DNA of 32,197 bases, taken from the NCBI GenBank assembly GCA_012839815.1, contig DUMQ01000106.1, positions 1 to 32,197 of the forward strand, given 5' to 3'. Both the position numbers and the translations under genes were made by a program. The notes under the pieces were generated by a model, which did not search any database, was not told where the DNA came from, and saw only the letters and a program-made list of their open reading frames with translations. Of the stretch, positions 5-32,197 are shown piece by piece. Position 1 is the first letter of the stretch; the number at the start of each line of letters is the position of its first letter. This stretch comes from Bacillota bacterium. Its GTDB lineage: Bacteria > Bacillota > SHA-98 > Ch115 > JABLXJ01.

Positions 5-244
5 GTGGCAAGATGCTTTCCAGTGCAGCGAGCAGGTGGTAACTAACTTGCCAGTCTGGTGCGCAGAGTGGTAAGATACTTGCCAGTTCGACGAATGGGT
101 GGTAATTAGCTTACCACTTCAGCGTGTAAAGTGGAAGAATACTTACCACCCCGGCATAGGAAGAGGAAAGATACTTTCCAGCCTGACGCTCAGCTGGCAA
201 ATATGTTACCATCCCGGCGTGAGAAGTGGTAAGATACTTACCAG
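5..244. repeat. Tandem array of eight 19-bp palindromes at 31-32 bp spacing
   Basis: Eight degenerate copies of an interrupted palindrome, GTGGTAAG-N3-CTTACCAC, start at 5, 36, 68, 99, 131, 163, 194 and 226, so the steps are 31, 32, 31, 32, 32, 31 and 32 bp. Copies at 68 and 226 are closest to the consensus. The 12-13 bp between palindromes is also weakly conserved (pyrimidine-rich, then about CNRCG). The period is close to three turns of B-DNA, so every palindrome would face the same side of the helix. The array runs into the window start and is probably longer. Both arms and spacers are degenerate, unlike CRISPR. A protein-binding array (iteron-like, partition-like or nucleoid-organising) is an inference; no gene for a binding protein is visible next to it. 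Confidence 0.85.
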
Positions 245-668: not shown

Positions 669-687
669 GTGGCAAGAGTCTTACCAC
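669..687. repeat. Isolated array-type palindrome
   Basis: GTGGCAAG-AGT-CTTACCAC matches the palindrome of the 5-244 array in sequence and arm length, and is followed by a similar spacer (CCTGAGG). It lies just beyond the right end of MITE copy A, as though this element or other insertions had separated it from the array. Confidence 0.65.
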
Positions 688-1221
688 CCTGAGGCTGCGA
701 TCCGGGCAGGAAGGCTGAGAGGCAGACTGGCTGGCAGGCTGGCTGGTTGGCTTGCAGGAACGTCACCATCAGACAGGTCATAGGACTATGGCTAGCCATA
801 GGGCTATAGATGGATGTAAGTAGCCTGTAGACCACAATATCTTACATGCACCCTTAAGAGAGATCCCGATGTTGCATTTCGAATATCTTTGCGATATACT
901 TACTCTCGCAGCTGGAATTCCTCAACGTCTATCCGTAGCTTGAGTAGGAATCCGGTCCCTCCATACGTGTTACTGCCAGGTTTTGGCTGACCTCGGCAGT
1001 AGCATCGTCACGTTCTCAATGGGTAGGATGGGTTTATTTGTGGGAAATTAAAGCGAAATTACGAAGGAAAGCTTTGATGCTGCGTAGAATAGTAGTACAG
1101 TAGATCGGCAAAACTTAGCAGAGGGGCACGGGAGGTTGGTCCGTCGGGCACAGGCTTGATATCCTTAGCTTGCGTGATACGTGCGTCTGCTGGTTATATA
1201 AGGTAGATGAGGTGGGCATAA
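688..1221. other. Non-coding stretch upstream of tig
   Basis: No convincing gene is seen. Recognisable structure: a low-complexity run of GGCTGGC-type repeats at about 721-757, a perfect 16-bp palindrome CTATGGCTAGCCATAG (786-801), and a hairpin with a 10-bp stem carrying one bulge (972-1000, ACTGCCAGGT against ACCTCGGCAGT) that lacks a T-run. The tig promoter should lie at the right-hand end, but no strong sigma-A match could be picked out. Confidence 0.5.
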
Positions 1222-2511
1222 GTGAAGGTAAGCGTGGAGAGAATAGAGAAAAACGTCGTGAGCCTTGAGGTTGAGCTAGAGGAGGAAGCTTTAGATCGAG
1301 CGCTTGAAAGGAGCTATCGCAAGTTAGTCAAGAAAGTGGCTGTGCCTGGTTTCCGCAGGGGTAAGGTTCCGAGAAAGATCTTTGAACTTAAAGTCGGCAA
1401 GGCTGCCCTTTATGAGGATACATTAGATACCCTGGTGCCGGAGGCCTATTTGGACGCAGTCAAGGAGTCCCGGATAGACCCCATCGACCAGCCTAAGTTT
1501 GAGGTCATCCAGATGGAGGAGGGTAAACCCTTTAAATTCAAGGCTACGGTGGAGGTCAGGCCCGAGGTAAATCTAGGGAATTATAAGGAAATAAAGGTTG
1601 AGAAGAAGGTCGAACCTGTTTCCGATGAGGATATTGATAACCAGATTGAGGCTATGAGAAAGGCAAATGCCAGGCTCATTGATGTCCAAGACCGGGACGT
1701 TGCGGAGCGTGGCGATTTCGCTGTTATAGACTTCGATGGTTCCATCGAGGGAGCTCAGGGAAAAGATATGAGCGCGCGTGAATATACCGTCGAGATCGGA
1801 GGCGGGAGGCTGATCCCCGGTTTTGAAGAGCAGCTTGTAGGGCTTAGAATCGGCGAGGAACGGGAGATCGAAACCTCCTATCCGGAGGACTTTCCTGATA
1901 AAGAGGTTGCGGGAAAGAAAGCAAGATTCAAGGTAATGCTCCGGGGTCTTAAGCGCATGGAGCTCCCTGAGCTAAATGACGAATTTGCGAAAAAGGCGGG
2001 CGGCGTGGAGACGGTGGAGGAGCTCCGGAAGAGCGTGGCATCATCCCTGGAGAGATCGAAAGAGAAGCTGGCTGAGCTGAAACTTCGCAACGAGATCATC
2101 GATCGCGTTGTTAAAGATGCCCAGGTGGAGTTGCCTGAGAGTCTCGTAAACCGGCAGATAGATTCGATGGTCGCGGATTATAGCTACAATCTTTCTCAGC
2201 AGGGTATGACTCTGGATAAATACCTGGAGGCCGTTGGCCAGGATATCCAGAGTTTTCGCGAGCAGTTCAGGGAGGAAGCTCAAAACGTAGTCAAGAGGGA
2301 TCTTGTGTTGCGCGAGATCGCAAAGCTGGAGAATATCCAGGTCACTGACGATGATGTCACCGCCAGGCTGGAGGAGATATCTCAGAAGACGGGGCGTGAT
2401 ATGGATTCGGTGCGAAAGGCTTTTACCATGGGGACGGGGGAGGAACGCCTCAGGGATATGATTATGATAGATAAGACCATTGATTTTCTTGTCAAGGAAT
2501 GTAGCGCTTAG
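1222..2511 (+). CDS. tig: Trigger factor, ribosome-associated chaperone and prolyl isomerase
   Basis: Trigger factor binds the ribosome at the polypeptide exit and shields nascent chains in the cytoplasm. The 429-residue protein has the family's length and order: an N-terminal ribosome-binding domain with the signature GFRRGKVP at residues 43-50, an FKBP-type peptidyl-prolyl isomerase domain at about 155-245 (RGDFAVIDFDG through LIPGFEEQLVG), and a long helical C-terminal chaperone region. It starts at GTG, preceded by a GAGGTGG ribosome binding site (about 1209-1215). clpP and clpX follow on the same strand, the classical Firmicutes arrangement linking folding to degradation. The 117-bp gap to clpP shows no clear terminator. 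Confidence 0.97.
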   Translation: MKVSVERIEKNVVSLEVELEEEALDRALERSYRKLVKKVAVPGFRRGKVPRKIFELKVGKAALYEDTLDTLVPEAYLDAVKESRIDPIDQPKFEVIQMEEGKPFKFKATVEVRPEVNLGNYKEIKVEKKVEPVSDEDIDNQIEAMRKANARLIDVQDRDVAERGDFAVIDFDGSIEGAQGKDMSAREYTVEIGGGRLIPGFEEQLVGLRIGEEREIETSYPEDFPDKEVAGKKARFKVMLRGLKRMELPELNDEFAKKAGGVETVEELRKSVASSLERSKEKLAELKLRNEIIDRVVKDAQVELPESLVNRQIDSMVADYSYNLSQQGMTLDKYLEAVGQDIQSFREQFREEAQNVVKRDLVLREIAKLENIQVTDDDVTARLEEISQKTGRDMDSVRKAFTMGTGEERLRDMIMIDKTIDFLVKECSA

Positions 2512-4785: not shown

Positions 4786-6465
4786 ATGAGCTTGAATACA
4801 ACAACGAATGTAATCGGGTTGATAAATCTCTTTTTCGCCGTTGTGATTGGTCTCTACTTTTGGAATTTACTGAGGACGCAGCAAACAAACAAGATCGCTG
4901 TGGATAGAGAATCACGCAAGGAAATGGAAAAACTCCAAAAATTGCGGAGCATCTCGCTTTCCGAGCCTCTCTCCGAGAAAACCCGGCCCTCTACCCTTAA
5001 CGAGATTATCGGCCAGGATGAGGGGCTTAAGGCATTGCGAGCGGCACTATGCGGACCTAATCCTCAACACGTTATAATCTACGGGCCCCCTGGTGTCGGC
5101 AAGACCGCTGCGGCTCGTGTCGTTCTCGAAGAAGCGAAGCGAAATCCGCTTTCCCCTTTTCGCGAATCCGCAAAATTCATCGAGATGGACGCGACGACGG
5201 CCAGGTTTGACGACAGGGGGATAGCCGACCCGCTTATAGGTTCTGTCCACGACCCAATATACCAGGGAGCCGGCCCCCTGGGCATAGCTGGTATACCCCA
5301 GCCAAAGCCCGGGGCCGTCACCAAGGCCCACGGAGGGATCCTATTCCTGGATGAGATAGGGGAGCTCCACCCTGTTCAGATGAATAAGCTGCTCAAGGTC
5401 TTGGAGGATAGGAAGGTATTTTTTGAAAGCGCCTATTATAGTTCAGAGGACTCTAACATTCCCCAGCATATACACGATATATTTCAGAATGGGCTTCCGG
5501 CTGATTTCCGGCTGGTTGGCGCCACAACCAGGATGCCTCACGAGATACCAGCGGCCATACGGTCACGCTGTATCGAGATATTCTTCAGGGCACTTACGCC
5601 CGATGAGGTAGGGGTGATAGCGGCCAATGCGGCTAAAAAGGCCAGATTTGAGCTTGGTGAAGGAGCTCTTGAAGTTATTAAGAAGTATGCTACCAATGGG
5701 CGCGATGCTGTAAATATGATCCAGATTGCAGGTGGGATAGCATTGACCGAAAGGCGTTACAGGATTACTTCTCAGGATGTTGAATGGGTGGTAAACAGCG
5801 GCCAGTATGCGCCCAGGCCTGAGAAACGGGTGCCGGAGGAGCCCCAGGTTGGCTACGTAAACGGGCTTGCGATCTACGGGCCCAACATGGGCACCATAGT
5901 TGAGATAGAGGTCATAGCGATACCGGTGGCGAGAGGCACCGGGCGCGTCACTACCACGGGCGTGATAGAGGAGGAGGAGATGGGTGACGGGGGAAAAGTC
6001 GTACGCCGCAAGAGCATGGCAAAGGGGTCGATCGAGAATGTCCTTACGGTATTGCGCAAGTATCTCGGCGTGGACCCCTCAGATTATGACCTGCATATTA
6101 ATTTCCCGGGCGGGGTCCCCATCGATGGGCCATCGGCTGGTATTGCTCTGGTAACAGCGATCTACTCGGCCATAACAAACGAGCTCGTAAATAACAAGGT
6201 GGCAATGACCGGTGAGATCTCGATACGTGGATATGTAAAGCCAGTGGGTGGTATTGTACCAAAGATCGAGGCTGCGATAAGGGCAGGTGCCAAAAAAGTT
6301 ATAATACCCGGAGATAACTGGCAGGACATCTTCAAGACTATAGAAGGAATCGAGATCTTGGGGGTGAACCGTATAGAGGATGCAGTAAGGTCGGCTCTGG
6401 TAAATAGCGGGGGGCCGGCACGGAGGATACCGACAATAGGGGTCCTCACCCCTGTTAGCACGTAA
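4786..6465 (+). CDS. lonB: Membrane-anchored ATP-dependent protease LonB
   Basis: LonB is the Bacillus-type Lon paralogue, associated in Bacillus subtilis with the forespore. The 559-residue protein has an N-terminal hydrophobic segment (about residues 9-29), then an AAA+ domain with Walker A GPPGVGKT and Walker B ILFLDEIGEL, and a C-terminal S16 peptidase domain. The Ser-Lys dyad is Ser450 (GPSAGIAL) and Lys493 (GGIVPKIEAA), 43 residues apart as in Lon proteases. It lacks the large N-terminal substrate domain of LonA, as expected. The ATG start has a GAGGAAGG ribosome binding site. It is separated from lon by a terminator and a new promoter, so the two are probably independently transcribed. 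Its presence suggests a spore-forming ancestry. Confidence 0.94.
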   Translation: MSLNTTTNVIGLINLFFAVVIGLYFWNLLRTQQTNKIAVDRESRKEMEKLQKLRSISLSEPLSEKTRPSTLNEIIGQDEGLKALRAALCGPNPQHVIIYGPPGVGKTAAARVVLEEAKRNPLSPFRESAKFIEMDATTARFDDRGIADPLIGSVHDPIYQGAGPLGIAGIPQPKPGAVTKAHGGILFLDEIGELHPVQMNKLLKVLEDRKVFFESAYYSSEDSNIPQHIHDIFQNGLPADFRLVGATTRMPHEIPAAIRSRCIEIFFRALTPDEVGVIAANAAKKARFELGEGALEVIKKYATNGRDAVNMIQIAGGIALTERRYRITSQDVEWVVNSGQYAPRPEKRVPEEPQVGYVNGLAIYGPNMGTIVEIEVIAIPVARGTGRVTTTGVIEEEEMGDGGKVVRRKSMAKGSIENVLTVLRKYLGVDPSDYDLHINFPGGVPIDGPSAGIALVTAIYSAITNELVNNKVAMTGEISIRGYVKPVGGIVPKIEAAIRAGAKKVIIPGDNWQDIFKTIEGIEILGVNRIEDAVRSALVNSGGPARRIPTIGVLTPVST

Positions 6466-6723: not shown

Positions 6724-6872
6724 TTCATTGTAGAGAACTAGCCGCATAGGTTATCTGGAGTACAATTCGGGATCCTCTATCCGCCCTCGAGGGGTCATCT
6801 GAACTACCGGATGTTTTATGCTACTTGATAATCAGCTCTGTGGGCCCATTAGTCAGGAGGTGTGGGAGAGGG

Positions 6873-9353
6873 ATGGCTACGGCGAATGTGGGAGAGGCAG
6901 AACTCAAGGCTCAGGCCCAGGATATCTTACCATTGCTTCCCTTGCGCGGTGTTTTGGTCTTTCCATATATGACAATACCCCTTGAGGTCGGGAGGGATAA
7001 GTCTGTCAGTGCGCTTGAGGAGGCAATGATGAATGACCGGCTCATACTGTTAACTGCGCAAAAGCAGGCCAGGGTAAATGAGCCCACGCCAAACGAGATT
7101 TATAGGGTTGGTACAATCTCAGAGATCAAGCAGCTCGCTAAGCTCCCGGACGGCACTATAAGGATCTTGGTCGAGGGTATTGTGAGAGCCAGGATCGAGG
7201 AGTATGTTCAATCGGAACCCTGTTACAAGGTGCGGGTTACCAGGCTCGAAGAGCACGAGGAGAAGACACCTGAAATCGAGGCCTTGATGAGGAGCACTGT
7301 CAGCGAGTTTGAACAGTATGTAAAGCTGAGCAAGAAAATTCCTCCGGAGATTTTGATCTCCGTTGCTAACATCGATGACGCGGGCCGCCTGGCCGATGAC
7401 ATCGCATCTCACCTGCCTTTGCGGGTGGAGGATAAGCAGGGTATATTAGAGGCCGGGTCGCCGAAAGCCAGGCTCGAGACACTTTGCCAGATATTGGGCA
7501 GAGAGATGGAGATCCTGGAGATCGAGAGGAAGATACACGTACGGGTCCGGAAACAGATGGAGAAGACCCAGAAGGAATATTATCTCAGGGAGCAGATGAA
7601 GGCCATCCAGAAGGAACTCGGTGAAAAGGACGAACGCATGGCCGAGGTTGATGAATACAGGGAGAAGATAGCGGCGGCAAAGTTGCCCAAAGACGTGGCC
7701 GAGCGAGCCGCGCGCGAGGTCGAGAGGCTTGAGAAGATGCCCCCGATGGCCGCGGAGGCTGTTGTCGTGCGCACTTACCTCGACTGGCTCCTGGCGCTCC
7801 CCTGGACTCAAAAGACCAGGGACCGGCTGGATGTAGATGCCGCAGCCAGGATCCTGGATGAGGATCATTACGGCCTGGAAAAGGTGAAGGAGAGGATTCT
7901 GGAGTTCCTGGCTGTTCGCCAGCTATCTAATAAAATGAAGGGGCCGATACTGTGCCTCGTGGGACCCCCGGGTGTAGGTAAGACATCACTTGGAAAATCC
8001 ATAGCTCGCGCCCTCGGGAGGAAATTTGTCCGGTTCTCCCTGGGAGGCGTGCGGGATGAAGCGGAGATCAGGGGGCACAGGCGGACTTATGTCGGCGCCC
8101 TGCCTGGTAAGGTCATACAGGCTATGCGGCAGGCGGGGTCGAAGAACCCTGTGCTGTTGCTGGATGAAATCGATAAGATGAGTTCGGACTTCAGGGGAGA
8201 CCCCGCAGCAGCGTTGCTCGAGGTGCTGGACCCCGAACAAAACTGCGCCTTTGGCGATCACTATATAGAGGCGCCGTTTGACCTATCGGATGTCATGTTC
8301 ATAACTACGGCGAATGTCATGCACGCTATACCGCGTGCGCTCCTGGACAGGATGGAGGTCATATCGATCCCGGGCTACACAGAAGAGGAAAAGGTTCAAA
8401 TTGCCCAGAAATTCCTTTTCCCCAAGCAGATAAAGGAGCACGGGCTCGAAGACCGCGGCGTGACCATCAGCGAGGGCGCGATCCGCAAGATCATCCGGGA
8501 GTACACGCGCGAGGCCGGAGTCCGAAACCTGGAGCGGGAACTATCTGCCATATGCCGGAAGGTTGCGCGAGAGGTTGTCAGTGGCTGCGAGGGGCCTATC
8601 TCAGTTGACGAGGACCAGGTTGAAAAATACCTTGGCATACCTCAGTACAGGTATGGGGTCGCCGAGATGGAGGACAGGGTTGGGGTTGCAACGGGCCTGG
8701 CCGTGACTGAAGCGGGCGGTGATATCCTCGCCATTGAGGTTTCTGTGATGAAGGGCACGGGAAAGCTCACTCTCACGGGCAAATTAGGGGAGGTCATGAG
8801 GGAGTCGGCACAGGCGGGCTTCACCTATATCCGCTCGCGTGCTAACGATCTCAAGATAAACGAGACCTTCTATCAGGACTCGGATGTGCACATCCACGTG
8901 CCAGAGGGGGCAATACCAAAGGACGGGCCCTCGGCGGGTATTTCAATGGCAACTGCTCTGGCATCGGCCCTAACAGGGCGCGCCGTTAAAGGCGATGTGG
9001 CAATGACCGGCGAGATCACGCTTCGTGGCCGTGTGCTCCCCGTCGGCGGGATAAGGGAAAAGGTGCTCGCAGCACATAGAGCGGGCATCCGGACGGTTAT
9101 CTTGCCGTCGGAGAATAAAAAGGAGCTTGAAGAGGTCCCCCAAAATGTCAAGGATAAGCTTGAATTTATCCTCGTCGACCATATGGACCAGGTATTGAGT
9201 GTTGCCCTGCTACCTGAGGAGGTAGCGTCCACCGCAGGACCCCCCGAAGAGGATGCCCGCGAAGAATCGCCGGGCGAGGGGAATATGGACGGGGTCCCTA
9301 TCATACCGAGCGACGGACACGTGGGAGGCGAACAAGTGCCTTATATCGCCTAG
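6873..9353 (+). CDS. lon: ATP-dependent protease La (LonA)
   Basis: Lon is the cytoplasmic AAA+ protease for misfolded and short-lived regulatory proteins. From the ATG at 6873 the protein has 826 residues. In order it has the N-terminal LAN domain ([19 protein letters not shown]), a coiled-coil region (about 220-290), Walker [10 protein letters not shown] (about 363-371), Walker B LLLDEIDK, and the S16 domain with the dyad Ser687 (DGPSAGIS) and Lys730 (43 residues apart). The C-terminal tail of about 45 residues after the protease domain is acidic and low-complexity. An in-frame TTG at 6825 would add 16 residues. The ATG is preferred because an AGGAGG lies 12 nt upstream, followed by a GGGAGAGGG, and because the protein then begins near the conserved domain. 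Confidence 0.97.
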
Positions 9354-24548: not shown

Positions 24549-24560
24549 TCAGAGATATGA

Positions 24561-24758
24561 CTAAGTGTAGGTTCCTTAATTTGTGCCAGTTTACCAGCAC
24601 GTTCCAGGGGTTGCCGGTGTTGCGTTCCGGGGACGGCGCGCTTGCGGCGCGCCTCCGTTGAAATTTGGCGCGAGGGCCCTGCCAAATTTCAAAAGGCCCC
24701 GTCACGCAAGCACCGGCAACCCCCGGAAAAACGGCGGTAATCTCGAAGTTACACTTAG
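24561..24758. repeat. Palindromic MITE-like element, copy C (complete, 198 bp)
   Basis: Perfect 9-bp terminal inverted repeats, CTAAGTGTA (24561-24569) and TACACTTAG (24750-24758), bound the element. Inside, the inverted arms with core GGTTGCCGGTG (24607-24624 and 24705-24724) enclose a GGCGCGC/GCGCGCC hairpin (24635-24653) and a TTGAAATTTGGC/GCCAAATTTCAA hairpin (24658-24692). It is the best-preserved copy and lies 12 bp after the Cys-rich gene, where it could also affect the 3' end of that transcript. No target-site duplication is obvious. Confidence 0.88.
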
Positions 24759-24822
24759 ACGTATTGAGGAATAGAGCTTTCCGCGGACAACATCTCTATG
24801 CTAAAATCATTCGAAAGTTTTA

Positions 24823-31312: not shown

Positions 31313-31978
31313 ATGGTTCGGCGCATTCGCAGGATCAATGAGCTTTTAAAGGAGATGTACGGCCCTAAGGTGCGGGAGGATGAGGATCCCCTCGATGCGC
31401 TTATCATGACGATCCTCTCCCAAAACACGTCAGATATAAATTCACACAGGGCGTTCGCAAACCTAAAAGAGCGCTTCCCCAGCTGGGATGACGTGCGCAG
31501 GGCGAGTGTGAGCGAGATAAAGGACGCTATCAGGGTTGGGGGCCTCGCCGGGGTTAAGGCCGGGCGTATCAAGCGGGCCCTTGAACAGATACAGAGCGAG
31601 CGCGGATACACGGACCTGGGGTTCTTGAGGGACCTGGATGTGGGGGATGCCCTTAAATATCTTCGCACATTTGAAGGTGTGGGGCCCAAGACAGCTGCCT
31701 GCGTCTTGTTATTTGGATGCGGGCGGCCTGTCTTCCCTGTAGATACCCATATCCACCGGATAGCGAGACGTTTGGGGCTAATAGGGAAGGATATCGGGCC
31801 CGATGAGGCCCATGAGGTCCTGGGTGCACTGGTCCCGCATGATATCGTCTATGAATTGCATGTGAATATGATCGCTCACGGGCGCATGCGTTGCAGGCCG
31901 CATAACCCGCGATGCGACGATTGCCTCCTCGCTGGGGACTGCTGGTATTACAGGGGTAACAGGTTAGATCGTGAATGA
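31313..31978 (+). CDS. nth: Endonuclease III-family DNA glycosylase/AP lyase
   Basis: This 221-residue base-excision repair enzyme removes oxidised pyrimidines. The helix-hairpin-helix FEGVGPKTAACV (120-131) carries the catalytic Lys126, and the essential Asp144 lies in FPVDTH (141-146). The 18-residue spacing is the same as in Escherichia coli Nth (Lys120/Asp138). A C-x6-C-x2-C-x5-C cluster (Cys194, 201, 204, 210) would bind [4Fe-4S]. The N-terminal helices diverge from standard Nth, and the form resembles the 'endonuclease III domain' proteins of thermophiles. It starts 20 bp after valS, so co-transcription is likely. The ribosome binding site (GAGGGAG) is far upstream (about 15 nt). Confidence 0.93.
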   Translation: MVRRIRRINELLKEMYGPKVREDEDPLDALIMTILSQNTSDINSHRAFANLKERFPSWDDVRRASVSEIKDAIRVGGLAGVKAGRIKRALEQIQSERGYTDLGFLRDLDVGDALKYLRTFEGVGPKTAACVLLFGCGRPVFPVDTHIHRIARRLGLIGKDIGPDEAHEVLGALVPHDIVYELHVNMIAHGRMRCRPHNPRCDDCLLAGDCWYYRGNRLDRE

Positions 31979-31981
31979 TGC

Positions 31982-32059
31982 TAAGTTAGTGCGCAAAAAT
32001 CTCTGCCCTTTTTGGCACTCGCATGGGGTGCCTCGCATCTCTCTGCCCGGCGGACGCGG
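31982..32059. repeat. Repeat modules I and II abutting MITE copy D
   Basis: Module I (31982-32024) matches 23303-23345. Module II (about 32035-32060) matches 436-460, where it also abuts a MITE end, and the solitary inverted copy at 4649-4684. It starts just after the nth stop codon. No gene is supported here. Confidence 0.75.
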
Positions 32060-32197
32060 CTAAGTGTAAGTTCGAAGATTATCGCCGTTTTGCCAGGGGG
32101 GATGCCGGTGCTTGCGTTCCGGGGACGGCGCGCTTGCGGCGCGCCTCCGTTGAAATTTGGCGCGAGGGCCTTGCCAAATTTCAAAAGGCCCCGTCAC
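32060..32197. repeat. MITE-like element, copy D (cut by window end)
   Basis: The left end CTAAGTGTAAGTTCGAAGAT is of the copy A left type (equal to the copy C right end read backwards). The core then runs GGCGCGC hairpin first and TTGAAATTTGGC hairpin second, the opposite of copy A. The element stops at the window end within the right arm (CCCCGTCAC). Confidence 0.8.

Follow-up and report, generated by a model that had tools for sequence, protein, structure and literature searches.

On sequence grounds, the array of phased palindromes found at the start of the analysed DNA forms the interior of a mobile element that is scattered through the genome and lacks a transposase gene of its own. The explanation favoured here as a whole, and considered probable, is that the array constitutes the core of this element, and that mobilization occurs in trans via a transposase of the ISKra4 family (Mutator-like). 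The order of parts would be an inverted repeat, up to ~400 bp of sequence, 10 to 15 dyads and a second inverted repeat. Insertion, to judge from the sequences of the various copies, would place the right end 15–18 bp upstream of σA −35 boxes, with duplication of 9 bp of target.

The window, by which we mean the whole stretch of 32 197 nt analysed herein, is an entire contig (C94 of genome G000) that starts within the array. Eight dyads of 19 bp, with the form GTGGTAAG-N3-CTTACCAC or similar, begin at positions 5, 36, 68, 99, 131, 163, 194 and 226, with steps of 31, 32, 31, 32, 32, 31 and 32 bp. All read on the forward strand, as GTGGCAAGATGCTTTCCAG (5–23), GTGGTAACTAACTTGCCAG (36–54), GTGGTAAGATACTTGCCAG (68–86), GTGGTAATTAGCTTACCAC (99–117), GTGGAAGAATACTTACCAC (131–149), GAGGAAAGATACTTTCCAG (163–181), CTGGCAAATATGTTACCAT (194–212) and GTGGTAAGATACTTACCAG (226–244). 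The eight palindromes with steps of 31 or 32 bp described in the original prediction are thus genuine, as the core TGGTAAGATACTTACCA, when up to three mismatches are allowed, matches the window at 11 sites; shuffling predicts 0.06, and no single shuffle produced more than one. Equally, the array does run off the start of the window, as proposed, because the contig ends inside it; complete copies elsewhere contain 12–15 units. A ninth dyad (GTGGCAAGAGTCTTACCAC, 669–687, forward strand) is also present, but the suggestion that it is an isolated unit does not stand, as this dyad represents the array's terminal unit, parted from the remainder by nested repeats, including one at 461–659. In another copy (contig C139), this terminal unit lies in phase, 33 bp from its neighbour. 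Nor does the GGAAAG/CTTTCC unit at 163 represent a recent change of both arms in step, since nearly all copies carry GTGGAAAG/CTTTCCAG there, with other copies of this unit reading GTGGAAAGATACTTTCCAG. The spacers were described as semi-conserved, and prove to be so across copies as well, as do the dyads. A CRISPR array was considered and set aside, as the spacers are not unique, with dyads and spacers both semi-conserved and common to the copies. A search of the window against Rfam returned no match, such that the array is not a known RNA family, in agreement with the earlier view that it does not fit CRISPR, rRNA or known riboswitches.

The right part of the array element occupies positions 1–853 of the window (forward strand), is repeated in the genome and contains no transposase gene; the left part lies past the contig end. 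Its right terminal inverted repeat (832–853, reverse strand, GGGTGCATGTAAGATATTGTGG) is of the same type as the right ends of ISKra4 elements in relatives, with the inverted-repeat match itself spanning 842–853. The 9 bp target duplication expected of this copy would be TTAAGAGAG (854–862, forward strand), for which the partner copy was not found. Two further elements are nested within, both on the forward strand. Nested element A (261–369) is 109 bp long, with inverted repeats of 20 bp (GAGACTGTTGA) and a 6 bp target duplication, GCGCAA, at 255–260 and 370–375; it has inserted into the array element, with the empty site preserved at another locus (L045). Nested element B (461–659), situated between dyad unit 8 and the terminal unit, is ~200 bp in length, with terminal inverted repeats of CTAAGTGTA that extend as CTAAGTGTA[AG]GTT, and an inner inverted repeat of 22 bp. 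Forty or more copies of element B exist in the genome, with those in the window located at 461–659, 24559–24764 and 31978–32197, such that the other end of this contig also falls inside a copy.

Genome-wide, 209 dyads are found, compared to three for a reversed control. Matches to the window array, at 89–100 % identity, number 19 across the genome, its own locus included, and a motif scan of the genome places arrays on more than 30 contigs, most of which end inside the array. The element also accounts for many of the points at which the assembly is broken. A copy internal to its contig (C85, L042) has 15 units. At least 20 distinct left flanks were recovered, placing the array element at a minimum of 20 loci, and the flanking genes are unrelated, including those for serine hydroxymethyltransferase, a ParB-family protein, sugar kinases, a pyruvate formate-lyase-like protein and others. 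The ends of the element are inverted repeats (GGGTGCATGTAA...) with 9 bp target duplications. Reading outwards, the left end GGGTGCATGTAATTTTTGTAATGTGG is common to ~13 copies and the right end GGGTGCATGTAAGAATTGTGG to 12, each adjoining unique DNA. Because contigs break inside the element, left and right ends were paired via their target duplications. Two pairs agree at 9/9 positions (C27/C91, GAGCCAAAG; C72/C145, TTCCCCAGA) and two more, C29/C80 and C88/C3, at 8/9, giving four pairs at 8–9 of 9 positions against a mean of 0.023 expected from shuffles. In the left arm of many copies (e.g. L044, L048 and L061), a variable run of tandem ATGCTCATGATCGA-like repeats separates the inverted repeat from the first dyad.

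Positioning of the element relative to promoters is markedly one-sided. The TTG of a σA −35 box lies 15–18 bp outside the right end in 9 of 12 copies, and at that distance outside the left end in none of 13. In the window, a σA-type promoter (TTGCAT-N17-TATACT, 872–900, forward strand) is found 18 bp beyond the element end at 853, within the 47 bases that follow this end, and is the likely promoter of tig–clpP–clpX–lon. The first gene downstream is tig, encoding trigger factor (1222–2511, forward strand), followed by clpP, clpX, a lonB-like gene and lon; the two Lon-type protease genes stand in tandem downstream of tig–clpP–clpX, at 4786–6465 and 6825–9353. In a sister species (G001), for which trigger factor is 82 % identical and in which copies are few, the same −35 and −10 boxes are kept and the element is absent; the window copy is thus an insertion. 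Oriented insertion that targets promoters has been reported for elements of the ISKra4, ISLre2 and TnGBS types (PMC3942029), with the ISKra4 group reportedly inserting in fixed orientation 13–17 bp upstream of σA promoters (PMC3942029). The spacing of right ends seen herein, as read from sequence, matches this reported behaviour.

The connection to ISKra4 transposases is made both by linkage and by shared ends. In contig C139 (L177), an array directly follows the gene for a 449 aa transposase (L177, 2437–3786), which falls within the ISKra4 family (303.9 bits against NF033572, cutoff 205) and begins at a left inverted repeat of the array-element type. As this array faces the opposite way from those of the other copies, and a right inverted repeat is missing, the pairing may be a chance fusion. 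The transposase element itself interrupts an IS3-type orfA-like gene (L177, 2063–2302). Related transposase elements are found in G003 (61 %) and G235 (58 %), with remnants in G005 (70 %) and G002 (73 %); all have the same ends and no array. Ends beginning GGGTGC[AG]TGTA are common to the array elements and to transposase-bearing loci (L183, L202, L194 and L207), right ends of array-free ISKra4 elements in relatives match over ~21 bp, and one such relative (L207) likewise displays a 9 bp target duplication. That the array was an original part of every ISKra4 element can be dismissed, as L183 and L202 have none, and, because the elements of G003 (at 61 %) and G235 are array-free, ISKra4 transposition does not in itself depend on an array. 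A search of plasmids returned only distant ISKra4 transposases, cyanobacterial in origin and at ~30 % identity. Neither the window copy nor a complete 728 bp element from a relative (L242) contains a transposase ORF, and so the array element is filed as an ISKra4 derivative, rather than as an insertion sequence.

Arrays beyond this genome were sought with a sequence-only, two-unit profile. Arrays were found in G001 and G002, and in relatives of the same class (G006, G008, G009 and G014), with none in G003 or G005, nor in other sampled genomes of the phylum under strict filters. The complete 728 bp element, repeat–array–repeat within one contig (L242), belongs to G008, a member of another family of the class, and its right end matches that of the G002 transposase remnant over ~36 bp. 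By eye, its left flank ends in the nonamer CCGGCTGTG, which recurs 18 bp beyond the right end, the recurring CCGGCTGTG being 16 bp upstream of a TTGACA box. No clear inverted repeats bound the arrays of G006, G009 and G014, which counts against the favoured explanation; these arrays are probably of greater age, or truncated. One of these (G009, L239, 1735–2195) contains 13 dyads with steps of only 32, 41 and 52 bp, directly upstream of a gene; having no recognizable inverted repeats, it could be domesticated or end-less. Scans for the exact core in genome and viral collections that do not include the source genome produced isolated single sites and no arrays.

The helical phasing that was anticipated for the window holds in two lineages. 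Steps are mostly 31–33, 40–42, 52–53, 73–74, 84 and 106 bp, equating to 3, 4, 5, 7, 8 and 10 turns, with the few exceptional values (36, 38, 39 and 50 bp) lying in several cases at array edges. Pooling 90 steps from the arrays of seven genomes gives R(10.5)=0.77, and R=0.72 (P about 1 × 10−6) for the 26 steps that exceed 34 bp. Common descent accounts for part of the agreement amongst steps within one genome or array; independent evidence for phasing is provided by the arrays of different genera, in which the steps follow different orders. The dyads are also constrained in sequence. Across ~30 aligned copies, variation affects 1.1 % of cells in the arms, 4.0 % in the centres and 4.2 % in the spacers, such that arms vary 3.7-fold less than spacers, and any shift of the unit mask out of register raises the arm rate from this minimum (per-column P=0.0004, or P=0.009 without CpG). 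Between arrays that are 70–77 % identical, arms are 80–90 % alike and spacers 58–74 %. Among variants present in at least two copies, those in arms show a five-fold deficit (P=0.0004), whilst single-copy variants are not significantly depleted there (0.13 vs 0.19 per column, P=0.16), although collapse of contig ends in the assembly may blur this pattern. Constraint that is strong for shared variants and weak for single-copy ones suggests that it is chiefly the spreading lineage that is under selection, a pattern more in favour of a function in transposition than of one for the host at individual sites. Selection for symmetry, as originally proposed, is upheld insofar as the arms are constrained (1.1 % vs 4.2 %), but not in the sense of arms changing in step, as no covariation was found over 87 distinct units, with only position 5 being marginal (P=0.048). 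Independent change of the arms over these 87 units is what would be expected of a site for a dimer, rather than of a hairpin.

Each dyad (TGGYAA-N5-TTRCCA) is a putative homodimer site. With dyads separated by whole helical turns, dimers would be aligned on one face of the DNA, forming a cooperative row or filament; the phasing and arm constraint are directly visible in the copies, and from these we infer cooperative binding on a single face. Occupancy by the transposase near the ends would increase as dimers load on to the dyads, which would help the ends to pair, and selection would thus retain the sites in copies that spread. That the binder is the ISKra4 transposase itself is a reading that we lean towards by a modest measure. 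TGGYAA/TTACCA sequences that resemble half-sites occur 18–37 bp inside the ends of array-free transposase elements (left end of L207, right ends of L187 and L194); noticed afterwards, and not seen in every end, this resemblance is suggestive only of the transposase as binder. The broader proposition, of a promoter-targeting family present throughout the class, whose ISKra4-type transposase forms a long, one-faced filament of dimers on 10–15 phased dyads, is put forward tentatively, and is rather less likely to be correct than not. On this view, every insertion would set a platform of phased binding sites ahead of a host promoter, and might also control the gene concerned.

The principal competitor accepts the same mobile element, but has the dyads bind a regulator of the host, or one otherwise independent of the element, so that a mobile upstream regulatory array would recruit or block transcription factors beside the promoter at which it lands. 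We view this as unlikely. In its favour, the right end usually faces a σA promoter, the arrays of G006 and G009 stay well phased upstream of genes despite having no recognizable inverted repeats, and closely related, array-free ISKra4 elements show that the transposase manages without an array. Conversely, the flanking genes have no common function, there is little constraint on single-copy variants after insertion (P=0.16), and the window array ends several hundred base pairs from the promoter. An operator array was similarly rejected, due to the lack of a common function amongst neighbouring genes.

Much less probable is that the array is a passive tandem repeat, or minisatellite, carried along by a transposon and bound by no protein. 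Whilst the basic unit is indeed a 31/32 bp tandem repeat with semi-conserved spacers, the arms are constrained, dyad and phase are kept in lineages otherwise different in sequence, and spacings change by whole helical turns. An origin of replication, a centromere or a nucleoid-organizing array, as had been raised for the window, was not borne out and now appears very improbable; phased dyads do resemble partition sites and a ParB-family gene lies near one array, yet near-identical copies, numbering 20 or more and bounded by inverted repeats and 9 bp duplications, are dispersed amongst unrelated neighbours, the orthologous tig locus of G001 is empty, and G001 has few copies. Finally, each unit could form an 8 bp stem with a 3 nt loop, but the absence of arm covariation over 87 units, the mismatched arms in many of them and the lack of an Rfam match leave RNA or cruciform hairpins with a negligible likelihood.

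With the transposase-mobilized element as the preferred explanation, the array has value as an experimental system. To our knowledge, the assembly of bacterial Mutator-like transposases on their ends, and the manner in which they find σA promoters, are poorly known. Up to 15 natural, phase-locked dyads represent a ready-made substrate for cooperative assembly, and the element offers a means to ask if promoters, that of tig–clpPX–lon for example, can receive a regulatory platform from a transposon.

With regard to known systems, searches of the open-access literature, themselves weak evidence of absence, revealed no described insertion sequence or ISKra4 derivative with such an array. The element resembles the ISKra4 family (p-MULT4, Mutator-like DDE; PMC3942029) in its inverted-repeat ends, 9 bp duplication, oriented insertion upstream of σA promoters and a linked transposase above the NF033572 cutoff, but differs in that array copies have no transposase gene and possess a 0.3–0.5 kb phased dyad array that is missing from array-free relatives. 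It is also similar to MITEs and non-autonomous IS derivatives, which are non-coding, multicopy, bounded by inverted repeats and target duplications, and mobilized in trans. The array element is likewise non-coding, with inverted repeats and at least 20 array copies; at ~0.7–1 kb it is, however, larger than the MITE yardstick of roughly <600 bp, and has a constrained, phased internal array. REP, BIME and REPIN sequences are also dispersed, intergenic palindromes in clusters, but these are single palindromes associated with a Y1 transposase, whereas here a whole array moves, with inverted repeats and a DDE family. Tn7, Mu and hAT elements (Ac/Ds, Hermes) similarly have many internal transposase sites near their ends, although these are fewer or irregularly spaced (general knowledge and PMC6188088). 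In IS1535, from the IS607 family, the TnpA motifs are likewise helically phased and subterminal, and a filament of dimers builds up cooperatively on them (PMC6188088), in the manner suggested herein for the array. There, four 9 bp direct repeats lie 20–60 bp from one end and the transposase is a serine enzyme (PMC6188088), compared to 10–15 dyads over 300–500 bp and a DDE transposase family in the present case. The array element is best regarded as a promoter-targeting, ISKra4-derived element of a known kind, with an unusual and testable phased-array architecture.
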